Below are positions 2,077 to 20,640 of a DNA stretch of 27,361 bases, one piece after another. The notes beneath the pieces were generated by a model. It saw nothing but the letters and a program-made list of their open reading frames with translations, ran no database searches and was not told the DNA's origin. The stretch's first letter is position 1. Every line of letters begins with the position of its first letter. The stretch covers positions 1 through 27,361 of the IMG/VR virus record IMGVR_UViG_3300042549_001025; one strand, written 5' to 3'. The position numbers and the translations under genes were made by a program. This DNA is from a virus.

Positions 2077-2690
2077 GCGACGAGAAGCTGAACGCCAACT
2101 CCACACTCGACAAAGTGCTCGGGTATGTGGACTCGCCGTTCAAGCTGTTCGCCATCCTGATCATGGGTGTGGTGGCCTTTACCGGCTACTTCCTGTGGCA
2201 AAACCAAGATTTCATGCGAGACGCCTACAAGGAGTCCAAGAAGCTGCCCGAGATCAACACCAGCCGCGCAGACGACGCCAGCTCGATGCTGTTCAAGAAG
2301 ACTGGCGCAACCGTGGTGGCGATCTTCAAGGTCAACCCGCTGTTCGGAAGTCGGGTGCTGTATAGGGCATACACCAAGGATGGACGGGACAAGTCCGTGG
2401 AAGACATTGATGTTGGCCTGTTCAGCCAGAACTCGGCCAACAATGCTGACATCATCAAGCTGATGACCAACGATATTCCCTGTTCTGAGTACCGATATGC
2501 TCAGTCTGAAGTCGGGCTGTGGTACATCGAAAAGGGGGTGGGGTTCACCTGCCGGGTAAGTGTTCCACCAGACAGCCACAGGTTTGTTGGACAGATCACC
2601 GTGGGCTGGACACAGCAGCCTGAGAACATTGAGCAAGTGAAATTCATGCTGGAGATTGCCAGCGCCATGCTAACCAAAAGGGGTAACTGA
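2073..2690 (+). CDS. Single-span membrane protein with exported domain, lysis cassette
   Basis: This 205-residue protein starts at ATG 2073 inside the ATGA overlap with the previous gene. Residues 1-24 are polar, 25-42 form one transmembrane helix (LFAILIMGVVAFTGYFLW), and the remaining 160 residues have a mixed alpha/beta look with exactly two cysteines (C137, C160) that could form a disulfide if the domain is periplasmic. It is followed at TGATG by the holin gene. Position and topology would fit a spanin-like or lysis-regulating function, but it lacks the proline-rich or coiled-coil look of usual spanins, so I leave the function open. The family is not recognised with confidence. Confidence 0.65.
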   Translation: MSDEKLNANSTLDKVLGYVDSPFKLFAILIMGVVAFTGYFLWQNQDFMRDAYKESKKLPEINTSRADDASSMLFKKTGATVVAIFKVNPLFGSRVLYRAYTKDGRDKSVEDIDVGLFSQNSANNADIIKLMTNDIPCSEYRYAQSEVGLWYIEKGVGFTCRVSVPPDSHRFVGQITVGWTQQPENIEQVKFMLEIASAMLTKRGN

Positions 2691-3118
2691 TGTTTCCATT
2701 GACCGCATTACTTGAAGTGGGTGGCAAGCTGATTGACAAGCTAGTACCTGATCCAGAGGCCAAAGCCAAAGCACAGATGGAGTTGGCAAAGATGGCTCAA
2801 GACGGTGAGCTTGCAAAGATGGCTAACGACACCAAGTTGTTTGAGACTGAGCAAAACAACCTCACAGACCGCTTAAAAGCAGATATGTCATCTGACTCTT
2901 GGCTGTCCAAAAACATTCGCCCTATGACCCTTCTATTGATTCTGGGTGGCTATTTCACATTTGCCATGATGTCTGCCTTTGATTACGACACAAACAGGTC
3001 GTATGTTGAGTTGCTTGGACAGTGGGGAATGCTGGTGATGTCGTTCTACTTTGGTGGGCGAACATTGGAAAAGATCATGGACATGAAATCTGACAAGAAA
3101 GACAAGGACGCAAAGTGA
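2690..3118 (+). CDS. Holin, GTA-type (3TM superfamily)
   Basis: This 142-residue protein resembles the holin family associated with gene transfer agents (GTA_holin_3TM type). The front GGKLIDKLVPDPEAKAKAQ and following Lys/Glu/Ala helix (residues 10-50) match the family's typical amphipathic N-terminal half. The segment WLSKNIRPMT precedes hydrophobic helices at about 79-97 and 106-124, and the tail is very basic. Holins of this kind assemble in the inner membrane and let the endolysin reach the cell wall. The gene overlaps the upstream membrane-protein gene by one base (TGATG) and the endolysin gene by GTGA, the usual arrangement of a lysis cassette. Confidence 0.8.
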   Translation: MFPLTALLEVGGKLIDKLVPDPEAKAKAQMELAKMAQDGELAKMANDTKLFETEQNNLTDRLKADMSSDSWLSKNIRPMTLLLILGGYFTFAMMSAFDYDTNRSYVELLGQWGMLVMSFYFGGRTLEKIMDMKSDKKDKDAK

Positions 3119-3711
3119 TTACTGCTGAACAACTCAAAGAATTGCACATTGATGACGATTGGTTGGAGCCTTTGAACGAGGCTTGCCAACGCTATGAGAT
3201 CAACACCCCGCTGCGCATGGCTGCGTTCATTGGCCAGTGCGCCCATGAGTCGGGCAACTTTAAGACCCTGCAAGAGAACCTGAACTACAGCGCCGAGGGC
3301 TTGTGCCGGGTCTGGCCGAGCCGATTCCCCACGCTGGAGGCTGCGCAGCCCTACCACCGCAATCCCGACAAGATCGCCAACAAGGTCTATGGCGGGCGGA
3401 TGGGCAACGGCACCGAGGAGACCGGCGAGGGTAGCTTGTATAAAGGCCGTGGTCTCATCCAGCTCACCGGCAAGGACAACTACACCTTGTGCGGCGATGC
3501 GCTGGGCCAAGACTTCATCCACTCCCCCGACCTGATCCTATCCCCCAAGTACGCGGCCCTGAGCGCGGCGTGGTATTGGAACAAGCGCGGCCTCAATAAA
3601 GAGGCTGACGCCAAGGACTACACCGGGATGACGAAAAAAATAAATGGTGGTGTAATCGGTCTTGACGACAGAATTAAGCACATCAACCACGCGCTGGCTG
3701 TGCTCACCTAA
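3115..3711 (+). CDS. Endolysin, glycoside hydrolase family 19 (chitinase-like)
   Basis: This 198-residue protein starts at GTG 3115 (AAGGA seven bases upstream), overlapping the holin stop as GTGA. GH19 features are clear: AAFIGQCAHESGNF with the likely catalytic acid E45, a second glutamate E54 nine residues later (QENLNYS), YKGRGLIQLTGKDNY at about 109-123, and AAWYWNKRGLN near 151-161. The E-to-E spacing of nine agrees with GH19 endolysins. It cuts peptidoglycan glycan strands. There is no signal peptide or anchoring helix, so it should depend on the upstream holin for release. It consists of the catalytic domain alone, with no cell-wall-binding module. Confidence 0.9.
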   Translation: MITAEQLKELHIDDDWLEPLNEACQRYEINTPLRMAAFIGQCAHESGNFKTLQENLNYSAEGLCRVWPSRFPTLEAAQPYHRNPDKIANKVYGGRMGNGTEETGEGSLYKGRGLIQLTGKDNYTLCGDALGQDFIHSPDLILSPKYAALSAAWYWNKRGLNKEADAKDYTGMTKKINGGVIGLDDRIKHINHALAVLT

Positions 3712-8216: not shown

Positions 8217-8710
8217 ACACTCCAGAATTTGATCGCCTGAATAAACACGTACCGCTCTTTGGGCAGTTCCTTAAAGGGGATGCCGAGGCGGTAAATTTTG
8301 TTGTCCGCGTCTTCCGCGCCCTGCACGTTTGGGACGATCTGATCGACAAAGACAAGCCCGTGGCGGATGACGAGATTCACGCCGTGTTCTGGGATTTGCT
8401 GATTGGCCTGCCTGCCGACAAGTTCTATCAGGCGCACCTTGGTCTGCTTAGCAGCACACTGGTAAACGCTGTAGTGAACTGGCACATTGCCAATAAGCTG
8501 GAGCGCGAAGGCAACGAGAAAGATCGTTCCATCGCTTTTATTTTGCGCGGGGCATACATTGATGTGCTGTCCGCATCCGCCCTGATCGTGGGCGGTTTGG
8601 ATTGGGCGCGAGAGATTGGCCCGGACATCCGCCGCTGGGCACACGAAGAAACCTTCGACCAATACTTGAACAACTTTGCCAAAGAATGCGAGGCACGCAA
8701 TGATAATTAA
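8213..8710 (+). CDS. All-helical phage protein with a WDDLIDKD motif
   Basis: This 165-residue, almost entirely helical protein starts at ATG 8213 by ATGA overlap with the previous gene. A DDxxD-type sequence (VWDDLIDKD, about residues 42-50) is followed by an acidic-hydrophobic helix (DDEIHAVFWDLLIGLP) and later by GAYIDVLSASALIVGGLDWA, which looks like a buried helix pair. I recall similar proteins in the virion gene blocks of aquatic phages, without known function. The DDxxD followed by long helices is reminiscent of isoprenoid-synthase-fold proteins, but the second Asp-rich motif is not evident. Its location between two virion genes argues for a structural or assembly role. Function is unassigned. 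Confidence 0.75.
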   Translation: MNTPEFDRLNKHVPLFGQFLKGDAEAVNFVVRVFRALHVWDDLIDKDKPVADDEIHAVFWDLLIGLPADKFYQAHLGLLSSTLVNAVVNWHIANKLEREGNEKDRSIAFILRGAYIDVLSASALIVGGLDWAREIGPDIRRWAHEETFDQYLNNFAKECEARNDN

Positions 8711-9722
8711 GTCCAAAGCCGAAGGCTATTCCAGAGACGGCATCCGCCTGTATCCATGCGACGACGGCGGCGGCGGTTCGGCCCCTGCACAAACCACACA
8801 AACCCAAGACCTGCCAGACTGGGCCAAGCCATACGCTCAAGAGGTTCTAGGTAAAGGTGCTGCGCTGTCTGAGGCCCCGTACCAAGCGTACACAGGGGAG
8901 CGGATTGCGCAGTTCACCCCCTTGCAGCAACAAGCATTCCAAGGCGCTGGCGCTATGGCCCCCTCTGCGGCAACAGGTGAGGCCGTTACTCGGGCGCTGG
9001 GTACATCCTACGACCCCTACGCCACTGGGCAGTTCGGTGCGCAGGCCAGTCAGTACATGGACCCCTACATGCAGAACGTGGTGGGCATCCAGCAGCGTGA
9101 AGCACAACGCACGGCCGACATTGCAGGCACACAGCGCGGCGCTCAAGCCGTTCAGTCGGGTGCTTTTGGTGGTAGCCGTCAGGCCATCATGGATGCAGAG
9201 GCTGCACGCAATCTGGCAATGCAAAAAGGCGACATCCAAGCCCGTGGCTTGCAGGATGCTTACGGCCGTGCCCAAACTCAGTTCAACACCGAGCAGCAGC
9301 TGCGCGAGCAGTCCAAGCAGTACGGCGCAGGACTTGGCCTTCAGGGTCTCCAGACCGCCCTCACGGGCGCTGGTCAGCAGTTTACACAAGGCATGGATGT
9401 CAACAGGTTGCAAGCAGGCTACGGCACGCAGCAGCAACAGCAGGTGCAGAACATCCTTGGTCAGCAGTACCAAGACTTCTTGGACCAGAAAAAGTTCCCG
9501 TATCAGCAGCTGGAGTTCCAGTCCAACCTGTTGCGCGGCACGCCATCAGGCACGACACAATCTTTGTATTCCGCTGCACCAAGCACAGCGTCGCAGTTGG
9601 CTGGTCTGGGCACGGCTGCGTATGGTTTGAGCAAAATGGCAGAAGGCGGGACTACTCGCGGCTACGCCAAAGGCGGGTTGATGGATTTGGCGATCGCCGA
9701 CATGATGGGAGAGCAGGCATGA
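8700..9722 (+). CDS. Gln-rich coiled-coil virion protein
   Basis: The start is set at ATG 8700 (340 residues, MIIKSKAEGYSRDG), because GAGG lies six bases upstream; an in-frame ATG at 8676 has no such site and would increase the overlap with the previous gene. Residues 35-60 read WAKPYAQEVLGKGAAL, followed by long Gln/Ala helices. Hallmarks are YMDPYMQNVVGIQQREAQR (about 119-137) and QSGAFGGSRQAI (about 152-163), which I recall as conserved in podovirus virion proteins. The C-terminus carries an A-polar-G-G doublet (residues 314-326) and ends in DLAIADMMGEQA. An internal virion or ejection role is likely from the family and neighbours. Confidence 0.7.
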   Translation: MIIKSKAEGYSRDGIRLYPCDDGGGGSAPAQTTQTQDLPDWAKPYAQEVLGKGAALSEAPYQAYTGERIAQFTPLQQQAFQGAGAMAPSAATGEAVTRALGTSYDPYATGQFGAQASQYMDPYMQNVVGIQQREAQRTADIAGTQRGAQAVQSGAFGGSRQAIMDAEAARNLAMQKGDIQARGLQDAYGRAQTQFNTEQQLREQSKQYGAGLGLQGLQTALTGAGQQFTQGMDVNRLQAGYGTQQQQQVQNILGQQYQDFLDQKKFPYQQLEFQSNLLRGTPSGTTQSLYSAAPSTASQLAGLGTAAYGLSKMAEGGTTRGYAKGGLMDLAIADMMGEQA

Positions 9723-11316: not shown

Positions 11317-14300
11317 ATGGCGTACACAGTAGCTTTGCCTGACGGTCGGACAGTTGAGTTTCCCGACGATCTACCCAAGGACAAAGCTGCTGCGATAATC
11401 CGCCGGCAGTTCCCTGAGCTCGGCGCACCAGAAACCACCGCCCTCGGCCAAGTCAAAGAAGGCTTCAAGGGGCTCGTGCCCGGCGCGATCGGTTTGCTGG
11501 AAGGCGCAGCTACAGGCGCGTCTGCGTTGCTCCCCGAGGACATGGAGAAATCCGCCCGGGAGAAGATCAAGTCGGTGGCCACTGCTGCCAAATCACCATT
11601 TGCTGCAGCTCCCGGATACGAAGACACTGTCGGGCGCAAGCTGGGCGAAGCCGTCGGCTCTACGGCTCCATTCCTGTTGGCGGGCCCCTTGGGGTTGGCG
11701 GGCCGTGTTGGTGCCGTAGGATTGGGTGTTGGCGCTGGCGCTGGCGAAGCCCGCACGCGAGCAGAAGAGTCTGGAGCCACTGGCGACCAGCGCGGCACGG
11801 CCACGGCACTGGGCATGATTCCCGGTGCACTCGAAGCCTTTGCTCCACTCCGTATCTTGTCCCGCATCCCCACGGCGTCTAAAGCTGCAGGGGTCGAGGC
11901 CGTCAAGCGTGCCTTGTTTGCTGGCGGCGAGGAGGCGGCCCAAGAAGCTGCATCAGGGTTCGCGCAAAACCTCATTGCCCGGGGCATCTACAAACCCGAG
12001 CAGGCACTGATCGAAGGTCTGGGCGAGCAGGCTGCTTACGGCGGCGCTACTGGTGCCATCGTGCAGGGTTTGATGGACTTGGCCCTCGGCCGTCGCGCTC
12101 GTGGCGCGCAAACAACACCCGGAGAAACACCTCCCGCAGCGCAGCCCGGTACGCAGGGCACCATGTTTACCGAAGAGGAAATGGGGAAGCCCGTGCGCGC
12201 TCGCGCAGAGCCTGCTGCCACGATGCCAGAGTTAATGGCCGAACGGGATGCACTGCGTGCCGAAGCGCCTACGCCAGAGACACAGGCTCGAATTGACGCC
12301 ATTACGCAGAAGCTGACAACGGCTGAAGGCCAGCAAGACCTCGGCCTTGATTACCAGCGCGAGTACGTTGATATGGTGCAGGAGCGTGAGCGCCTCACGC
12401 AGCAGCCGCAGACCCCAGAGGTCAAGGCCCGTCTTGCTGAGCTGGGCGAGCAGATGGCGCTGTACACACAGAGCGACATTGAGAGTATCCGTGCGGAGAA
12501 GGAAGGCCAAGTAGCCGCTGCGCAAGCCGATGCCAAAGCCCGCAAGAAATTCCCCGCTTTGGCCGGAGCCCCTGACCTGCTGACCCAATCGGATGAAGTC
12601 AAAGCTCGCACTCAAAGCGACCTGTTCGGTGGTGAACCCGCCCCACTCCCCGCTGCCAAAACGCCCGAGGCGCCCACTGGCCCTACCCCAGTTCCGCCTT
12701 ACACCCGCAAGGGCGAATATCAGTACAAGCTGCCGCTGCGCGGCGGTGAAGTGGTCGAGCCGTTTACTCTGCAGAACGTGATGGACACCGGCATTGCACC
12801 GTCCACAACCAAGGGGTGGTTTGAGAAGAACGTGGTCGGCAAAACCCAAAGCGAGGTGCAAGCCCTCGTCGACAAAGACCCGACGCTGCTGGGCGGAAAC
12901 GGAAAACGCGCCAAGATTTTGCGTGAACTGCTGGCTCCGCAGTCAGCCCCATTTAAGGAGGCACCAAGTGTCAAACCGACCCCTACCGAGACGCCTGCAG
13001 CTGAGCAGCGAGATGAGCCCCGAGCTGGTGAGCCAAGCGTGGGAGTTCCTAGTGAGCCTGCAGCCCCCGTCGTTTCTGAACCCGGAGCCGGAGTTCCCGG
13101 AGCCGCCGCAGAACCTGTCACACCTGACGGACGCGGACTGGTACCTGCTGGACGGCCTGCTGTGCAGGGAGATGAAACTCAAGGAGCAGAGCCCACTGCA
13201 GTAACGGCTGAGGCGGAACCAACCCCTGCTCCGGTAGTGGAACCAACCCCTCCTGCCGAAGCTGCACCCCAATCGTACGAGCAGTCTCCTGTAATCGCTG
13301 CGTTGGCCAAAGCCAAGACCAAGGCGCAACTGGAGTCGGCACTGGACGAGATTGCGCGAATTCGCCGAAATCCCGCGCACCCAGAGCACGAGGCCGTCAA
13401 TGCGTTCCTTGCGGATGCACTTGCAGCTCCCGGCTTCGAGCCAATGTTTGCTGCTGCGCTGGACCGGACCCGCCCACGCCAAGTACCTACGGAGCCAAAA
13501 TCGACTACGGATGGCTTGGAGAAGAAGCCCCGCGCAACCAAGCCAATCCGCGCTGTCCCGGCTGCATTCTTTGAGCCTGTTGGGGTCGACCGTAGGACTG
13601 GCAAAGTAGTCCGTGGCAAGCAGATGCTGATGCAGCCGATCGACGACAAACGCGCCGCTGAGTACCTGAAGGCCAAAGAGCAAGCAGACGAAGGCGATAC
13701 CACCGACCTGATGGCACTGTTTGAGGAGATCGAGAACGAAGGCGAAACCCCCGATACCCAAGGCGCTTTGTTTGATGACGACGGCAACGTGACCAAGGAA
13801 GGCGCAGCGACGGCACCGCTAAAAGCCACAAAGGCAAAACCCGCCGCTGCTAAACCAGCCTCTGCACCTGCGCAGCCTACGTCAGTTGCGCCTACAAAGG
13901 AAATCACCCAGACTGCCGACGGATGGGGTGGGGAAGTTTTGTTCTTTGACGGCAACGTGGGAATCATCAAGCGCCCAAATCCCCGCTCCGGCGAGCTGCA
14001 ATACATCCCGATTCAGGCGGACGGCACATACTCGCAGAACTTGTTGAACGGTGTTCAGACAGTAGACAACCTCCAAGCGGCGGGCACGAGCAAAGTGTTT
14101 TCCCCTGCCGAGATGGCGACGCTCACTGCACAAACTGCTGACTTCAAAGCCAAAGAGACCGCAGCGGAAGCTAAGTTCCCGGACGGCCCGTTTACAGGGG
14201 CTGCCTCCAATGTGGTGGCTGGTAATTCGGTTGACCCTCGCTATACAAACTACCTCACAGCCTTGATGAAGTCCATGGGGTTGGGCGACATCCGCGTGTA

Positions 14301-17300
14301 CCTGTACCACTCCGCTGACGTTGCTGGGAACGCGGACAAACTGCATATCCACGGCAGCTACTACCCAATCATGGCGCGAGGTACGGCAGATAAGTCCCAA
14401 AAAGGGGGCACCCGATCCATCGGTCCTGAGGGCAAAGACTTTATGTTGTTCATCAACGACAACATGTCGGAGGCCGAAACGCTGGAGATTCTGTCCCACG
14501 AACTCGGGCACATGATTCAGGAGATCGCGTTCAACAACGCCCCTGCCAACGTGCAAGCTGCTATCAAGGACGCACATGACGACTGGCTCAACAGCCTAAA
14601 AGGCAAGACCGTCGGAGATTTGGTTGAGAGTTTGCGCAACCGCTCAGCTGCCGAGCTGACGATCCGCGAGTCTGGGCCCGGCGCAATGCAGATGCCTATC
14701 AGCCAGCTTACTGCCAAAAACCGCAACTACTGGTTGGGCTTCAATGAGTGGTTCGCTGATAACGTATCCCGCTGGGCGACCACTGCGGACAAGCCCCTGA
14801 CCATTACCGAAAAGTTTTTCTCCAAGGTCGGGCAGATGATGCGGGACTTGGTGGCTGTTGTGACGGGCCGCAAATACCCACCACAGAAAGTGGTAGCTGA
14901 CTTCCTCGACAAAATGGGTCCCGGCAGTGGCGACGCGTGGATGGCCAAAGCGCAGGTTCCGGTGGGTAAGGTTCAGCCCTTGCAGAACGCAGTGACGTAC
15001 ACAACTGAGCAGCTTATCGACTCTATGGGCCCAATGGAGGCGCAAGAAAAGCCCATGCTGCGCAAAGTCATCGACGGTTACAAAGACCAGACTGAGGTGG
15101 GTTACGCGGTCAAGTTTCGTACGCAGGTTGCGGACTCTGCTGCCACGATCGAGCACCGCCTGCGCGAGCAGTTTGACGGCGCCGTGAAGGACAAGCTGGG
15201 CAAGTTCAACCCCATGGGTCTATACCGTCAGGCGCAGGACTACTCCAAGATGCTGCTGGAGTACCTGCAGGTTGGCGCAATGTCCAAGGAAGCTGCCACA
15301 GGGCTGTGGAAAGTCAAAGCCGACGCCAATGTGCGCCCTCCCGTGGAGGTCTACGCGATGATCGACAAGTGGGCTGCCAAGAACGGGTACTCCCGCGAGC
15401 GCGGCACCCAGATCGCAAGTCGTATTCTGGAAGGTGTGCGTCTGGACGCTATGCGGACATCTAACAAGAACGACGGCACCAGCTTCCTGCTGCACCTGAA
15501 AGATAACGAGATCGACCAGCTCGTGCGCGAGTACAAGGCAGACCCCGAGCTGCAAGCCATGAGCAAAGCCATGGACGAAGCGCGTCTGGCTATGGTGGAC
15601 AACATGATTGCGGTCGGCCGGTTGTCTGCTGAACAAGGCCAGTTGTGGAAGGACGCCGCAGGGTACGTGCCGTTCGACCGGATTGACGACTTTGCCACCA
15701 GCTTCTCCAAGATCAAGAAGATCAGCAACAAGGGCTTGGCCCAAGTGGGCAAGCTGCCAGAGCTCGTCGGTTCGATCAACCGCCCCGTTGGCAACGTGTT
15801 TGACAACTACCTGAACACCCTCGGGTGGATGGTGGGCCAGACCCTCAAGACGGACGGCACGGTGCAAACCCTGCGCAGTCTGGAGGATGCAGGGCACGCC
15901 AAATTTATCGGCCGCAGCCCTCAGGGCAAAGACAACGTCGTGGGCATGTACGTCAAGGGCGAGATGATGTACTGGGAAGTGCCATCGAAGTACGACGTGC
16001 TGGCGTTTAAGGACCTGAACCCGCCCAAGGCCAAGTGGCTGCAGGTGCTGGGCCAAGCGTCCAACGTGCTGCGCAAGGCAGTGACAGCACTGCCACCATT
16101 CGCGCTCAAGCAGGTAACGGACGACGTGCAGCGTGCCATCATGACCTCCGGTGTGAAGAACCCCGGCGCGCTGCTGCGCATGACGCTGTCCAACTTCGGC
16201 GGGCTGGCACTGGCCGAGTTGCGCGGCATTCAGCATCCTACAGTCAAGCAGTTTGGTGCATTGGGCCTGACCGGCGAATACGACTTCCAGCAAGGCAAGC
16301 CTGCAGCGTCTGTGCTCAAGGACTTGGGGTACAAGCCTCGGGGTAAGTTTGAGACCCTGCTGCACCGACTGGACGGCATCACCCGCGCGTCTGACTTGGC
16401 TGTGCGTAAGGCCATCTTCGACCAGACCATGAAGGAGTCGCAAGGCGACGAGCTGCTGGCACAGACCCGGGCCCGGGAATTCATCAACTTCCGCCGCCGT
16501 GGCGCAAGCGACTTCGTGGGTGCGATGGTCACAACCATCCCGTTCTTCAACGCCTACATCCAAGGTATGGACGTGCTGTACCGCGCAGCATCCGGCAAGG
16601 ACTCCAGCTCCTCAGTGGGCCGAGCACAAGCTCGCCGCATGTTCTGGAGTCGGGCTGCCATCGCCATGACGCTCAGCTCGCTGTACGCGCTGGGTGCGGG
16701 CGACGACGAGGACTACCAAGAAATGGACCTGCGCACTCGGGACAGCAACTGGATTTTGCCGGGCGGGTTCAAGCTGCCGGTGCCAAGCGAACTGGGCGCG
16801 TTGTTCAAGGTGGTCCCCGAGCGCGTGGTGGAATACATGCGCCGCCAAGGTACGCCCGAGGAGCAGACTGCATGGGAAGCAACTCGTACTGCCCTGACCT
16901 ACATCATGGAGCAATACGTCGGCCGCACGGTGCCTGTGCCGCAGGGTGTCAAACCTCTGCTGGAGGCATGGACCAACTACTCGTTCTTCACCGGGCGCGA
17001 GCTGGAAGGCATCTACCAGAAGCAGCAGGACCCAAGCCTGCGCCGCGCATCCAACACCTCTGAGCTGGCCATCGCCATTTCTGAGTTCAGCCGGGACGTG
17101 ATCGGGGTGGATAAGGTATCGCCCATCATGATCGACAACGCACTGAACGGCTACTTCGGCTCGTCCGCTGGCCTGCTGGTTGCCATGACGGACTCCTTGC
17201 TGAACCCAACGCGAGTCGACCGCCCACTGCACAAATACGCGCTGGTGTCCAACTACATGTACGACCCAGTGGGCACGCGCCGCATGACGGAGTTCTACGA

Positions 17301-17598
17301 ATCCCGCGAGAAGGTTGGCCGCGCCAACACCACGCTGAACGAGCTGATGAAGACCGATCTGGACAAAGCCGCCACGTATGCTGAGGAGCATGCAGACGAG
17401 CTGATGCTGGAGTCGGCAGTCAACTCAACGCTGGAACAGCTGGAGCGCACCCGGGCCTACAAGAAGTACCTGAACAGCCCGCTCGGCGCAGAAGCCATGT
17501 CGAAGGAAGAGCGCGAAGCGTCCATCAAAGAAGTCCGGCAGATGGAGATCGACCTCACTGGCTGGCTGCGCGAGGCGAAGACCGCGGTACGTCAGTAA
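11317..17598 (+). CDS. Giant polyvalent virion protein with zincin HELGH motif
   Basis: This 2093-residue protein starts at ATG 11317 with GAGG seven bases upstream. Residues 1-35 are a short module (YTVALPDGRTVEFPDDLPKD), and 45-250 contain Gly/Ala-rich membrane-like helices. Residues 255-840 are mostly Pro/Ala/Glu linkers with small helical islands. A zincin-type H1061-E-L-G-H1065 motif is followed by E1144 in GFNEWFAD, a candidate third zinc ligand, pointing to a metalloprotease-like domain. The helical C-terminal half (about 1230-2090, with GYVPFDRIDDF and ALPPFALKQVTDDVQRA) resembles the 'large polyvalent protein' domains of phages. Such proteins are packaged and injected with the genome. 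Protease activity is not proven. A second gene is nested in another frame at codons 551-629. Confidence 0.75.
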   Translation: MAYTVALPDGRTVEFPDDLPKDKAAAIIRRQFPELGAPETTALGQVKEGFKGLVPGAIGLLEGAATGASALLPEDMEKSAREKIKSVATAAKSPFAAAPGYEDTVGRKLGEAVGSTAPFLLAGPLGLAGRVGAVGLGVGAGAGEARTRAEESGATGDQRGTATALGMIPGALEAFAPLRILSRIPTASKAAGVEAVKRALFAGGEEAAQEAASGFAQNLIARGIYKPEQALIEGLGEQAAYGGATGAIVQGLMDLALGRRARGAQTTPGETPPAAQPGTQGTMFTEEEMGKPVRARAEPAATMPELMAERDALRAEAPTPETQARIDAITQKLTTAEGQQDLGLDYQREYVDMVQERERLTQQPQTPEVKARLAELGEQMALYTQSDIESIRAEKEGQVAAAQADAKARKKFPALAGAPDLLTQSDEVKARTQSDLFGGEPAPLPAAKTPEAPTGPTPVPPYTRKGEYQYKLPLRGGEVVEPFTLQNVMDTGIAPSTTKGWFEKNVVGKTQSEVQALVDKDPTLLGGNGKRAKILRELLAPQSAPFKEAPSVKPTPTETPAAEQRDEPRAGEPSVGVPSEPAAPVVSEPGAGVPGAAAEPVTPDGRGLVPAGRPAVQGDETQGAEPTAVTAEAEPTPAPVVEPTPPAEAAPQSYEQSPVIAALAKAKTKAQLESALDEIARIRRNPAHPEHEAVNAFLADALAAPGFEPMFAAALDRTRPRQVPTEPKSTTDGLEKKPRATKPIRAVPAAFFEPVGVDRRTGKVVRGKQMLMQPIDDKRAAEYLKAKEQADEGDTTDLMALFEEIENEGETPDTQGALFDDDGNVTKEGAATAPLKATKAKPAAAKPASAPAQPTSVAPTKEITQTADGWGGEVLFFDGNVGIIKRPNPRSGELQYIPIQADGTYSQNLLNGVQTVDNLQAAGTSKVFSPAEMATLTAQTADFKAKETAAEAKFPDGPFTGAASNVVAGNSVDPRYTNYLTALMKSMGLGDIRVYLYHSADVAGNADKLHIHGSYYPIMARGTADKSQKGGTRSIGPEGKDFMLFINDNMSEAETLEILSHELGHMIQEIAFNNAPANVQAAIKDAHDDWLNSLKGKTVGDLVESLRNRSAAELTIRESGPGAMQMPISQLTAKNRNYWLGFNEWFADNVSRWATTADKPLTITEKFFSKVGQMMRDLVAVVTGRKYPPQKVVADFLDKMGPGSGDAWMAKAQVPVGKVQPLQNAVTYTTEQLIDSMGPMEAQEKPMLRKVIDGYKDQTEVGYAVKFRTQVADSAATIEHRLREQFDGAVKDKLGKFNPMGLYRQAQDYSKMLLEYLQVGAMSKEAATGLWKVKADANVRPPVEVYAMIDKWAAKNGYSRERGTQIASRILEGVRLDAMRTSNKNDGTSFLLHLKDNEIDQLVREYKADPELQAMSKAMDEARLAMVDNMIAVGRLSAEQGQLWKDAAGYVPFDRIDDFATSFSKIKKISNKGLAQVGKLPELVGSINRPVGNVFDNYLNTLGWMVGQTLKTDGTVQTLRSLEDAGHAKFIGRSPQGKDNVVGMYVKGEMMYWEVPSKYDVLAFKDLNPPKAKWLQVLGQASNVLRKAVTALPPFALKQVTDDVQRAIMTSGVKNPGALLRMTLSNFGGLALAELRGIQHPTVKQFGALGLTGEYDFQQGKPAASVLKDLGYKPRGKFETLLHRLDGITRASDLAVRKAIFDQTMKESQGDELLAQTRAREFINFRRRGASDFVGAMVTTIPFFNAYIQGMDVLYRAASGKDSSSSVGRAQARRMFWSRAAIAMTLSSLYALGAGDDEDYQEMDLRTRDSNWILPGGFKLPVPSELGALFKVVPERVVEYMRRQGTPEEQTAWEATRTALTYIMEQYVGRTVPVPQGVKPLLEAWTNYSFFTGRELEGIYQKQQDPSLRRASNTSELAIAISEFSRDVIGVDKVSPIMIDNALNGYFGSSAGLLVAMTDSLLNPTRVDRPLHKYALVSNYMYDPVGTRRMTEFYESREKVGRANTTLNELMKTDLDKAATYAEEHADELMLESAVNSTLEQLERTRAYKKYLNSPLGAEAMSKEEREASIKEVRQMEIDLTGWLREAKTAVRQ
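12955..12961 (+). promoter_or_regulatory. Perfect Shine-Dalgarno site inside the giant virion gene
   Basis: The sequence AAGGAGG is fully complementary to the anti-SD of 16S rRNA. It stands six bases before a GTG (12968) in the +1 frame relative to the host gene. It has no use for the host frame, where the bases simply encode part of F-K-E-A. Its strength and exact spacing decide the start of the nested gene. Confidence 0.65.
12968..13204 (+). CDS. Nested overlapping gene, 78-residue unknown protein
   Basis: This frame lies wholly within the 2093-residue gene, shifted +1. GTG 12968 follows AAGGAGG at six bases, and the stop is TAA at 13202-13204. The product starts SNRPLPRR, has MSPELVSQAWEFLVSLQP (residues 16-33), a Pro/Glu linker (PSFLNPEPEFPEPP), and an ordered-looking helical end LTDADWYLLDGLL followed by REMKLKEQSPLQ. 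Of 78 codons about 68 end in G or C (hand count), while only about 31 of 79 host-frame codons do over the same stretch. The host protein there is a low-complexity Pro/Ala/Glu linker. Short phage proteins ending in a similar DW..L..LL..-SPL pattern seem familiar, but I cannot name the family. An internal ATG at 13013 is a weaker alternative start. Confidence 0.65.
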   Translation: MSNRPLPRRLQLSSEMSPELVSQAWEFLVSLQPPSFLNPEPEFPEPPQNLSHLTDADWYLLDGLLCREMKLKEQSPLQ

Positions 17599-17805: not shown

Positions 17806-20640
17806 TCAGACGGCGGGGGTAGTGAACGCCGTCTCGTCGATGCCAATGGCGTCTCCGTCAAACACGTAGCATCGGATGGCGATACCACTCAGCCCACCCA
17901 CCGCGCCAGCACCCAAACGTGTCGGGTGTGACTTGCCGTCGTGCTTCATGTACCGCGCTTGGTTCAGCCGCGCGATGCTGTCCTTGACGTCCACCTGCCG
18001 CATGGAGAAGAACCTGCGGAACTCCGCCACAGAAATGGCCAGCTCGCGAGTCTCCGGGTCGTAGCGCATACGCAGGGTGCCCTTCGGTGTGACTGCAGGG
18101 CGCTCAGGCAAACCTCCGGGCGGTGTGAATGGTGCCACCAACGCGTTGTTCACGTTCTCGTTGATGAACGCAGCCAGTGTCTCCTGAGCCACGGTAGTGG
18201 GGTCGCCAATGTCGGCCTTGGTCGCTGCACGAATTTGCGTCACGGAGGCCAGCGCGTATTGGTAGACGTGCGAGATTTCAATGTCGTGCAGGCTCAGGCG
18301 GCGGCTTATCAGGGCCCCCACAAACGCGCAGGTCAGGATCGCGGAGTAGAAGCGATCGGACTGGTCCAACCCCAACTCGGCGTCGATCTTGGTCTGCATG
18401 TTGGCCAGTAGCGCGCGCACGCTGTCCATGTGCGCCATCACGTACTCGATGTAGATGGGCCCTGCCACACCGAAGTTGGTGTTGAGCTTGCCGAACACAG
18501 CGTCAATCTCCTGCTTCGTGGCACCTGTGTACTTGGGCACGGACAGCTCCAGCACGCGGCGCAGTTCGCCGTCAGCCGTGCTCTTGTATTGCTGCAGAAC
18601 GTCCGTCACCGAAGCGTTGCCGGAGGTCAGCGTGATGTTGCACCAGACCGTGTGGTTCGCCCGCATCTTGTTGGACTGGGACTCCATACGGTGCTTGCCC
18701 CGACCGGAGGTGAAGCCGTAGGCCATGTCCGACAAGACCTCTGCCTTCTCGTTCGTGATCTCGTCCACGGTGTAGATCAGGCTGTTGACCATGCCGAGCA
18801 TGTGCATCTTGGAGGCGTAGGTGTCCTCTTTCTTCATGAGCAGGTCGTCAGGGTGCCCGAAGATCGAGTTGGCCACCATCTGAGCAGTGGACTTGCCGGA
18901 GCCAGACCCGTTGTGCTTGAGGTGCACCATCGCGCCCTTGACCACGTTGCCTTCGATCAGGCGCAGCAGGGGGGAGCCAAAGCCAAAGAACAGTGCCAGT
19001 GCGTGCGGCTCAAGGCCGGGGCGGTTGTAGAAGTTGGCGATCTTCTTCCACTCTTCCAAGGAGCCGGTCGGTTTGAACGCGGCAGCCAGCTGACGTGTGC
19101 CACTGGCCGGAGGCGCCAGCTTGACGCCAGAGGCGGTGTATTCCAACTCACCAACGACGAAGCCCAGCAGGTCAGGAGTCCACCCCATCTGATTGCGGGT
19201 GCGGTTGGCTGCATACTGGGACTGCAGCTTACGAATTGCGGATGCGAAATAAGCCATAAGGACTTCCAATTTTTTACCGTAGGCGACGACACCGTTGCGC
19301 ACCAACAGGTCACGCAGCTTGTCCGTAGCGAACAGCGTGGTGACTGGGGCGAAGAACCGGCGCACACCATCTTTGCGCATGTGCAAGTTGATGCCAACCA
19401 TCTCACCGTCACCGCTGTCATGCTCGTCGGAATCGAAGAAGCGTTCTGTCAGATATAGGTCGTCTGGGTAGACTTCAACCTCAACGTCGTCACCGTCTTT
19501 GTCCCTGTCCTTGCGGAACACCCCACCGTTCACACCACGGAAGTATGGGAACGGGTAGGTCGGAATTGCCAAGGCCACGACCGGCGAGTCCTCGTCTTCG
19601 TCCTTTTCGATCACGTAGTGGTCGTCCGTGACGGGTGCTTCCTCCACGATCTTGCCGATCAGGATTGGGCTGCTGATAGTTTGCTTGCAACCCTTGCAAC
19701 CCTCGTGGTAGTTGTCCTTGTACCACTGGCAGGTGTACGGGCCCTTGGTCTCGGCAGCTTTGGCTTCGGTGTTCTCAGCCGCGTAGCCGGGGTGGGCTTG
19801 GGACAGCTTGTGGATTGCGGTCGCGCCATCTTCGCAACGAATTGCGATCGACAGGGCTGCGCGCCACAGGGGCTCTTCCAAGTTGGCGGCGTCCACCAGC
19901 GCGTGCTTGATCTGGTTGCAGCCTGTGCCGTTGATGCTGCGTGTTGCCACGCGGGAGAACATGCACTTGGGGAACTCCCCACCTGCCACCTCACGGGTCG
20001 AGGCATCCATGCCGTACGCTTTGGCCGCTGACAAATCAACGGGCGCATGAGGCAGCAGCTCAACGAACGATTTAAGATCAGTCGGCTGACCTTGTGCAAC
20101 GATCTGTACGGGCCGCTGTTGGCCACCCTTGAAGTTGTGCGTACCGGGGATGCGCAGAATACGCGCCGCGTCAGCAGTCACCGCAGGGTCTGCATGCAGG
20201 TTGTGCTGGGTGCACAAACGCTTGAGTGATTTTGCGTGCGGTATCCAGTCGGATACAGCTACGTCTTCTGTGAGCGGCCAATACACATGCAGGCCGCCGC
20301 CTGAGTTGACAACAGTGGGGCTTGGGAGCCCGGTGTCTTTGATGAATACGGAAAGTGCCTGTGCCGCAGCGGGCTGGTCAGCGTATGGCTTACCTGTGCC
20401 GCAGTCCAGATCGAGGAAGAACGACCGCAGAAATGCAGCGTTATCAACCTTACGGCTTGAGTCGTCATTGAATGTGGCCAGCGCAAAATACGCATCCACA
20501 CCAGCAGCATCAAGCCCAACACCAACAGAATCAACGTCATCAATCGTGGGTTGGAACGATTGCTTGACTACACCGGACCGGATTCCCACCGTGCAGTATG
20601 CGCCCTGTGTGGGCAGAACGGATTCGAGAAAGTCAGTCAC
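17806..20640 (-). CDS. PrimPol (archaeo-eukaryotic primase) fused to a superfamily helicase/ATPase
   Basis: This 944-residue protein starts at GTG 20640 (GAGG four bases upstream). Residues 1-190 form an AEP/PrimPol domain: FFLDLDC with D77 and D79 as metal ligands, NSGGGLHVYW (H118) as the nucleotide-binding motif, and AARILRIPGTHNFK (159-171) as the third motif. C304, C315 and C318 (GPYTC…CKGCK) suggest a zinc-binding insertion. The C-terminal half is a DUF927-like ATPase with Walker A GSGSGKST (578-585) and Walker B-like IYTVDE (D626, E627). It should make primers and unwind DNA for the family A polymerase encoded upstream. A terminator lies directly before this gene. The primase call is strong, the helicase class is less certain. 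Confidence 0.85.
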   Translation of the reverse strand: MTDFLESVLPTQGAYCTVGIRSGVVKQSFQPTIDDVDSVGVGLDAAGVDAYFALATFNDDSSRKVDNAAFLRSFFLDLDCGTGKPYADQPAAAQALSVFIKDTGLPSPTVVNSGGGLHVYWPLTEDVAVSDWIPHAKSLKRLCTQHNLHADPAVTADAARILRIPGTHNFKGGQQRPVQIVAQGQPTDLKSFVELLPHAPVDLSAAKAYGMDASTREVAGGEFPKCMFSRVATRSINGTGCNQIKHALVDAANLEEPLWRAALSIAIRCEDGATAIHKLSQAHPGYAAENTEAKAAETKGPYTCQWYKDNYHEGCKGCKQTISSPILIGKIVEEAPVTDDHYVIEKDEDEDSPVVALAIPTYPFPYFRGVNGGVFRKDRDKDGDDVEVEVYPDDLYLTERFFDSDEHDSGDGEMVGINLHMRKDGVRRFFAPVTTLFATDKLRDLLVRNGVVAYGKKLEVLMAYFASAIRKLQSQYAANRTRNQMGWTPDLLGFVVGELEYTASGVKLAPPASGTRQLAAAFKPTGSLEEWKKIANFYNRPGLEPHALALFFGFGSPLLRLIEGNVVKGAMVHLKHNGSGSGKSTAQMVANSIFGHPDDLLMKKEDTYASKMHMLGMVNSLIYTVDEITNEKAEVLSDMAYGFTSGRGKHRMESQSNKMRANHTVWCNITLTSGNASVTDVLQQYKSTADGELRRVLELSVPKYTGATKQEIDAVFGKLNTNFGVAGPIYIEYVMAHMDSVRALLANMQTKIDAELGLDQSDRFYSAILTCAFVGALISRRLSLHDIEISHVYQYALASVTQIRAATKADIGDPTTVAQETLAAFINENVNNALVAPFTPPGGLPERPAVTPKGTLRMRYDPETRELAISVAEFRRFFSMRQVDVKDSIARLNQARYMKHDGKSHPTRLGAGAVGGLSGIAIRCYVFDGDAIGIDETAFTTPAV

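Follow-up and report, generated by a model that had tools for sequence, protein, structure and literature searches.

A conserved overprinted gene in the linker of a giant polyvalent phage protein, and a second unrelated family nested in the same kind of place

Genes embedded in another frame of a larger gene are described as rare in tailed phages, Rz1 being the standard example in the Caudoviricetes, and annotation guides urge extreme caution in recording them (PMC8785237). Among viruses at large, overprinted genes of the phiX174 type are familiar. A review of such genes is available (PMC8227390). Giant proteins carried inside the virion are represented by DarB of phage P1, which enters the head last, with Ulx and DdrB listed as helpers in localising or adding it (PMC9024508). 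Large polyvalent proteins with an LPD38 domain were described by Iyer et al. (2017, PMC5512222), where, as far as the text was covered, searching for terms turned up no mention of overlapping genes. The literature searched likewise contained no account of genes nested in the giant polyvalent genes of phages, although the coverage was incomplete and this is not proof of novelty.

We analysed a virus record of 27,361 bases, referred to here as the window, whose relatives lie on contigs reaching about 68 kb. The host gene (Table 1) meets the criterion for an LPD38 large polyvalent protein, being a large late-region product with a domain score well above the cutoff. It adjoins a DNA-ejection-like gene and virion genes, and the holin and endolysin genes are located further upstream (2690-3711). 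That the host is a virion protein, as the first-pass annotation had labelled it from sequence alone, is inferred from this gene context and is not shown. The HELGH motif of the host, with weak profile support, suggests that the giant protein may be cut into pieces. Downstream, on the minus strand, positions 17806-20640 encode a probable replication protein of 944 aa, which has a DUF927 domain and weakly matches a primase-polymerase.

Read directly from position 12955, the sequence comprises AAGGAGG, CACCAA, a GTG at 12968, 78 sense codons, and a TAA at 13202-13204. The frame is the host +1 frame, since (12968-11317) mod 3 = 1, and in the window it remains open for 62 codons upstream of the GTG. 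Within the overlap, 68 of the 78 nested codons end in G or C, against 31 of 79 host codons (computed). The first-pass annotation had claimed this same arrangement, which held in full, and its hand counts of about 68/78 and 31/79 proved exact. Its 2093-residue host ORF with a Pro/Ala/Glu linker also held, the linker being composed of Pro, Ala, Glu, Gly, and Val. The profile of the nested protein reads S-x-A-W-x(2)-L-x(2)-L ... P-x(2)-L-x(2)-L-x(3)-D-W-x-L-L-x(3)-L-x(2)-E. At the N-terminus, MSNRPLPRRLQLSSEMSPE, there is no hydrophobic signal, lipobox (by eye), or visible membrane segment. An Rz1-like embedded spanin was considered and rejected, as the lipobox signal is missing and the holin and endolysin genes are far from the site. 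The AlphaFold2 model of the nested product of the window predicts two helices (pLDDT 75, pTM 0.55), which gives only moderate support for a folded helical protein, as the first-pass annotation had claimed for the C-terminal half.

Table 1. Positions of the features discussed; coordinates refer to the window unless a locus is named.
Feature	Position	Strand	Description
Host gene	11317..17598	+	2093-aa large polyvalent protein, late/virion region; LPD38 above Pfam cutoff
LPD38 domain of host	16705..17220	+	residues 1797-1968; Pfam E 4.6e-27, 95.8 bits vs cutoff 27
HELGH (HExxH-like) metallopeptidase motif of host	14443..14517	+	Peptidase_M78 E 0.12 (below cutoff), phrog_87 metallo-protease E 0.01
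Small host segment upstream of nested gene	12715..12950	+	unrelated segment in its place in other loci keeping the nested gene
DNA-ejection-protein-like neighbour	8676..9722	+	phrog_4287 E 8.4e-15; virion/ejection module context
Nested (overprinted) gene	12968..13204	+	GTG start, 78 aa, TAA stop, host +1 frame
Shine-Dalgarno AAGGAGG	12955..12961	+	6 nt before GTG; covers host-frame Lys-Glu-Ala codons
Host codons beneath nested gene	12967..13203	+	Pro/Ala/Gly/Val/Thr/Glu linker, near-neutral in host frame, host dN/dS ~1
Second nested family, by locus	L138 6749-7144; L289 9001-9390; L290 9001-9363; L291 9001-9390; L292 9001-9390; L293 7001-7396; also L294-L331		

The length of the ORF carries no weight as evidence for a gene, as a +1 ORF of at least 78 codons is present in 1781 of 2000 (89%) synonymous-codon shuffles of the host gene. 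The combination of AAGGAGG, an ATG or GTG, and at least 78 codons occurred in 9 of 2000. Codon bias was also rejected as proof of the age of the nested gene, given that the Pro, Ala, Gly, and Val codons of the linker yield G/C nested third positions anyway. The decisive evidence that the nested ORF is a gene is its conservation across relatives.

Searching IMG/VR with the 78-aa product recovered 12 loci, and searching with profiles recovered 80 contigs. The homologue is nested in the same +1 frame within an open host ORF in all 80 loci, as it is in six more distant ones (6/6). More than 90 distinct homologues are present in IMG/VR phage contigs, with identities from about 26% to 92%; the first family contains 96 distinct protein strings in total, a few of which differ merely by the assigned start. 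The host ORF is open across the overlap in all loci and spans at least 700 aa even on truncated contigs. In the 83 complete first-family hosts it measures 1,738-3,184 aa, and the nested start falls at host residue 472-775 (median 557). The nested gene is present in a single copy per genome, and in no locus did it occur outside the giant gene. The appearance of a free gene beside a split host in locus L246 is accounted for by an N-gap in that contig downstream of the nested gene, and this candidate was rejected.

A reverse scan, seeded with the LPD38 region of the host, returned 80 loci, 70 of which carry the nested homologue in the same frame. The other ten lie on contigs truncated at the 5′ side, including one (L177) that ends near the expected position. 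When a divergent LPD38 was used as the seed of a third scan, still more distant first-family members emerged, as did nine complete, more distant hosts that carry none, which sets a boundary to the family. In the lowest pairwise-identity bin, the mean identity of the nested proteins (27%) is close to the shuffled baseline (25%), and the most distant members are therefore tied in by profile rather than by pairwise identity. The first-pass annotation had proposed searching the 78-residue product against phage proteins, with stops in this frame in related phages and loss of the Shine-Dalgarno sequence and GTG as refuting observations. The search found homologues only as nested genes and none in a frame of their own; no stops were seen, and the ribosome-binding site (RBS) and start are kept in every profile-scan locus whose contig includes the start.

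The start signals were compared in the 80 sequences whose contig includes the start, namely the window and 79 loci (starts assigned by script; L007 was left out, its contig beginning downstream of the start). The assigned start codons are GTG in 49 and ATG in 31. An RBS-like match of at least 4 nt precedes the ATG or GTG in 80/80, with a spacing of 6-7 nt in 79 and 9 nt in one. A stop codon in the nested frame directly precedes the nested start in five distinct members of this family and in at least 12 loci of the second family described below; these members must therefore initiate internally. Together, the conserved RBS and spacing and the upstream stops point to internal initiation, and not to frameshifting or read-through, in the absence of expression data.

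The pattern of substitution identifies the frame under selection. Among ten close relatives, the order of codon positions is inverted in the overlap, with host-codon mismatches of 0.23, 0.17, and 0.14 at the first, second, and third positions, respectively. The host third position, normally the fastest, is the slowest in the overlap alone, where its mismatch of 0.14 compares with 0.34-0.71 in all other gene windows. An unsupervised scan for codon-position inversion, run on first-family hosts against one another, flagged only the nested site. We estimated dN/dS by a simple OLGenie-like count of changes by their effect in each frame, not with the published program. In three clades and in all sequences together, the nested frame gave values of 0.35, 0.10, 0.10, and 0.36, and the host frame in the overlap gave 1.0, 1.14, 0.54, and 1.14 for the same four sets. 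Because nested dN/dS is low and host dN/dS is about 1, the nested protein is the selected product in the overlap. It is under long-term purifying selection, while the host residues there evolve near neutrality, and the host needs little beyond an open, flexible linker. The first-pass annotation had attributed the reversed codon bias to selection on the nested frame and had asked for synonymous and nonsynonymous rates to be compared in both frames; the attribution held, with nested values of 0.10-0.36 against a host value of about 1. The nested gene accordingly meets the criteria for an overprinted gene: it is wholly inside an ORF of another frame that stays open, has its own start and RBS, and is under purifying selection.

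The host sequence surrounding the nested gene varies in type. Across the loci retaining the nested gene, the immediately preceding host segment falls into at least two unrelated types. The LPD38 regions of L081 and L119 are 26% identical to each other, and that of L081 is 26% identical to that of the window, with the nested gene kept. Except at the lowest identities, the nested protein has a higher identity than the host segments at the N-terminus, upstream, and downstream. As a separate observation, the upstream-segment types (window positions 12637-12966 and the equivalents in L020, L034, L050, and L081) suggest domain exchange at this point. Similarly, LPD38 in L081 (9716-11047) and L119 (11417-12781) is about 26% identical to the common type, and the giant gene appears to have exchanged its C-terminal half.

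A second nested family was identified in Vibrio phage 1.232.O, a relative host without the first family, which contains a 131-aa +1 ORF. Its product is 91% identical to that of Vibrio phage D274 and matches unannotated stretches of giant genes in Pseudomonas phage Skulduggery, Ruegeria phage 45A6, Serratia phage Parlo, and Klebsiella phage ZX1 (29-35% identity, E 5e-9 to 7e-13). In all six public phages, the host ORF is uninterrupted (3,162-3,912 aa) with the gene nested in its +1 frame, and the gene is unannotated in the six public records examined. A profile scan added 38 loci from IMG/VR, and each has the gene nested in that relative frame. With L307 apparently being Parlo itself, the family stands at 43 records, the cultured phages Parlo, Skulduggery, and ZX1 among them. 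The proteins measure 121-138 aa and occupy the +1 frame of giant DarB-like, PLxRFG, or unnamed proteins in both cultured and metagenomic phages. Comparison of Parlo with ZX1 reveals the same inversion in the overlap (0.43/0.24/0.225), the third position being fastest in every other window. The AlphaFold2 model is a confident all-alpha fold (pLDDT 89, pTM 0.83). Kinship between the two nested families was rejected, as no relation was found on comparison.

Other +1 ORFs in hosts without the first family were not accepted without conservation, the second family excepted. A possible third nested +1 gene, of about 55 aa and 66% identical between the only two loci that carry it (L273 8895-9065, L287 7677-7844), is located downstream in the giant gene, shows the host codon-position inversion, and remains a lead. 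Protein-like +1 ORFs with RBS-like leaders were also seen in other LPD38 giant genes (L137 5672-5866, L278 1538-1744, L136 9545-9751, and L140 2122-2331); the one in L137 has no homologue outside its own record in INPHARED.

Searches of both nested families against Pfam, PHROGs, NCBIfam, and PDB sequences returned nothing convincing. A lone second-family member matched a Pfam TPR repeat (E 0.00014), a match common to no other member. Fold searches with both AlphaFold2 models gave no match below E 1, and in these databases nothing of known function is related to the first family by sequence or fold. IMG/VR, GTDB genomes, INPHARED phages, and plasmids yielded no homologue in stand-alone form.

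We propose that a genuine protein gene occupies positions 12968-13204, where it overprints, in the +1 frame, a linker between domains of a giant polyvalent protein that is probably virion-delivered. Judging from the anatomy, its translation would begin internally, within the mRNA of the giant gene, and both proteins would therefore be made together, each from its own start. We hold this part of the explanation with high confidence. The conserved RBS and start, the open host frame, and the near-neutral host residues in the overlap are shown; expression is inferred from the anatomy, without expression data. We further hypothesize, by analogy with the P1 Dar proteins, that the small alpha-helical product may work with the giant protein as a loading, chaperone/folding, or processing partner. 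On balance we lean slightly against this second part, which rests on strict co-location, an arrangement that positional entrapment could also give.

The strongest alternative, at least as likely as partnership and one that we can neither favour nor discount, is that the product is independent of the giant protein and merely co-expressed and trapped, acting for example in host takeover, in defence inhibition, or as a minor component of the virion. In its favour, host segments before and after the nested gene are exchanged while the nested gene stays, and the nested sequence is better conserved than the host flanks. Against it, the nested gene never occurs outside the giant gene, and a second unrelated family occupies the same kind of place. 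The probability left over by the partner and independent readings belongs to functions not considered.

A different question is the origin of the gene. The first-pass annotation had suggested a small gene captured within the host or trapped when two genes fused around it, and such enclosure of a formerly free gene is possible. The family is old, and codon usage is nearer to that of the phage in the nested frame than in the overlapped host frame in 70 of 83 loci, a result that would suit an older nested frame. However, linker composition biases this test, linkers readily yield long +1 ORFs, and none of the four collections searched gave a stand-alone homologue. De novo birth in the linker is the likely origin and is preferred over capture, although the matter is not settled.

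The remaining alternatives concern whether a separate protein is made at all. An RNA element or regulatory sequence could also suppress synonymous change and constrain the host third position, but the substitutions track the nested codon phase, with nested third positions the most variable, and change at nested-synonymous sites is about 2 to 8 times faster than at nested-nonsynonymous sites; this explanation was already disfavoured and is very improbable. A fusion to the host N-terminus, made by programmed +1 frameshifting out of the host gene, would suit a +1 frame that is open upstream of the start in the window, but it is hardly tenable given the conserved RBS and start spacing and the in-frame stops directly preceding the start in several members of each family; with five distinct first-family members interrupted in this way, the requirement for a continuous upstream frame fails. 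A chance ORF in a GC-rich Pro/Ala linker is easily obtained, as the shuffles demonstrate, but is all but excluded by more than 90 distinct conserved sequences with a constrained nested frame and a near-neutral host frame.

Two or more widespread families, unrelated to each other and under strong selection, have been missed because they lie inside giant genes, one of them in cultured phages with public records. A bolder reading is that the giant polyvalent virion-region proteins of podophage-like phages repeatedly carry hidden +1 genes in their flexible linkers, encoding dedicated, co-made partners, and that this has evolved independently at least twice, possibly three times. Taken as a single joint claim, this might as easily prove wrong as right; if true, it would be a general and overlooked rule of tailed-phage genome organisation. 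The result provides a testable set of hidden genes, a simple means of finding more in codon-position inversion, and an entry point to the production and loading of giant ejected proteins.

Compared with known systems, the locus resembles the Rz1 spanin of lambda-like phages in that a small gene is read from its own start within a larger phage gene and out of frame with it (PMC8785237). Unlike Rz1, a lipoprotein encoded within a lysis gene, its product has no visible signal, lipobox, or membrane segment, and its host is a giant polyvalent protein of the virion region. As in viral overprinting generally, two frames share the same DNA and constraint is shifted between them (PMC8227390); unlike the phiX174 type, the genomes are those of large tailed phages, and the overlap is confined to a near-neutral linker in which the nested frame is constrained. 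The P1 Dar system (DarB, Ulx, DdrA, DdrB, DarA, and Hdf) offers a parallel in a giant internal virion protein delivered into the cell with small co-produced helpers (PMC9024508), and some second-family hosts are annotated as DarB-like. The P1 helpers are, however, separate genes, and hhalign comparison of Ulx and DdrA with either nested family gave probabilities of at most about 0.2%, with no detectable homology. The host itself conforms to the LPD38 large polyvalent proteins (PMC5512222) in carrying LPD38 and a metallopeptidase-like motif. Overprinting as such is known, whereas its repeated occurrence in the linkers of giant virion-region proteins appears to be new.
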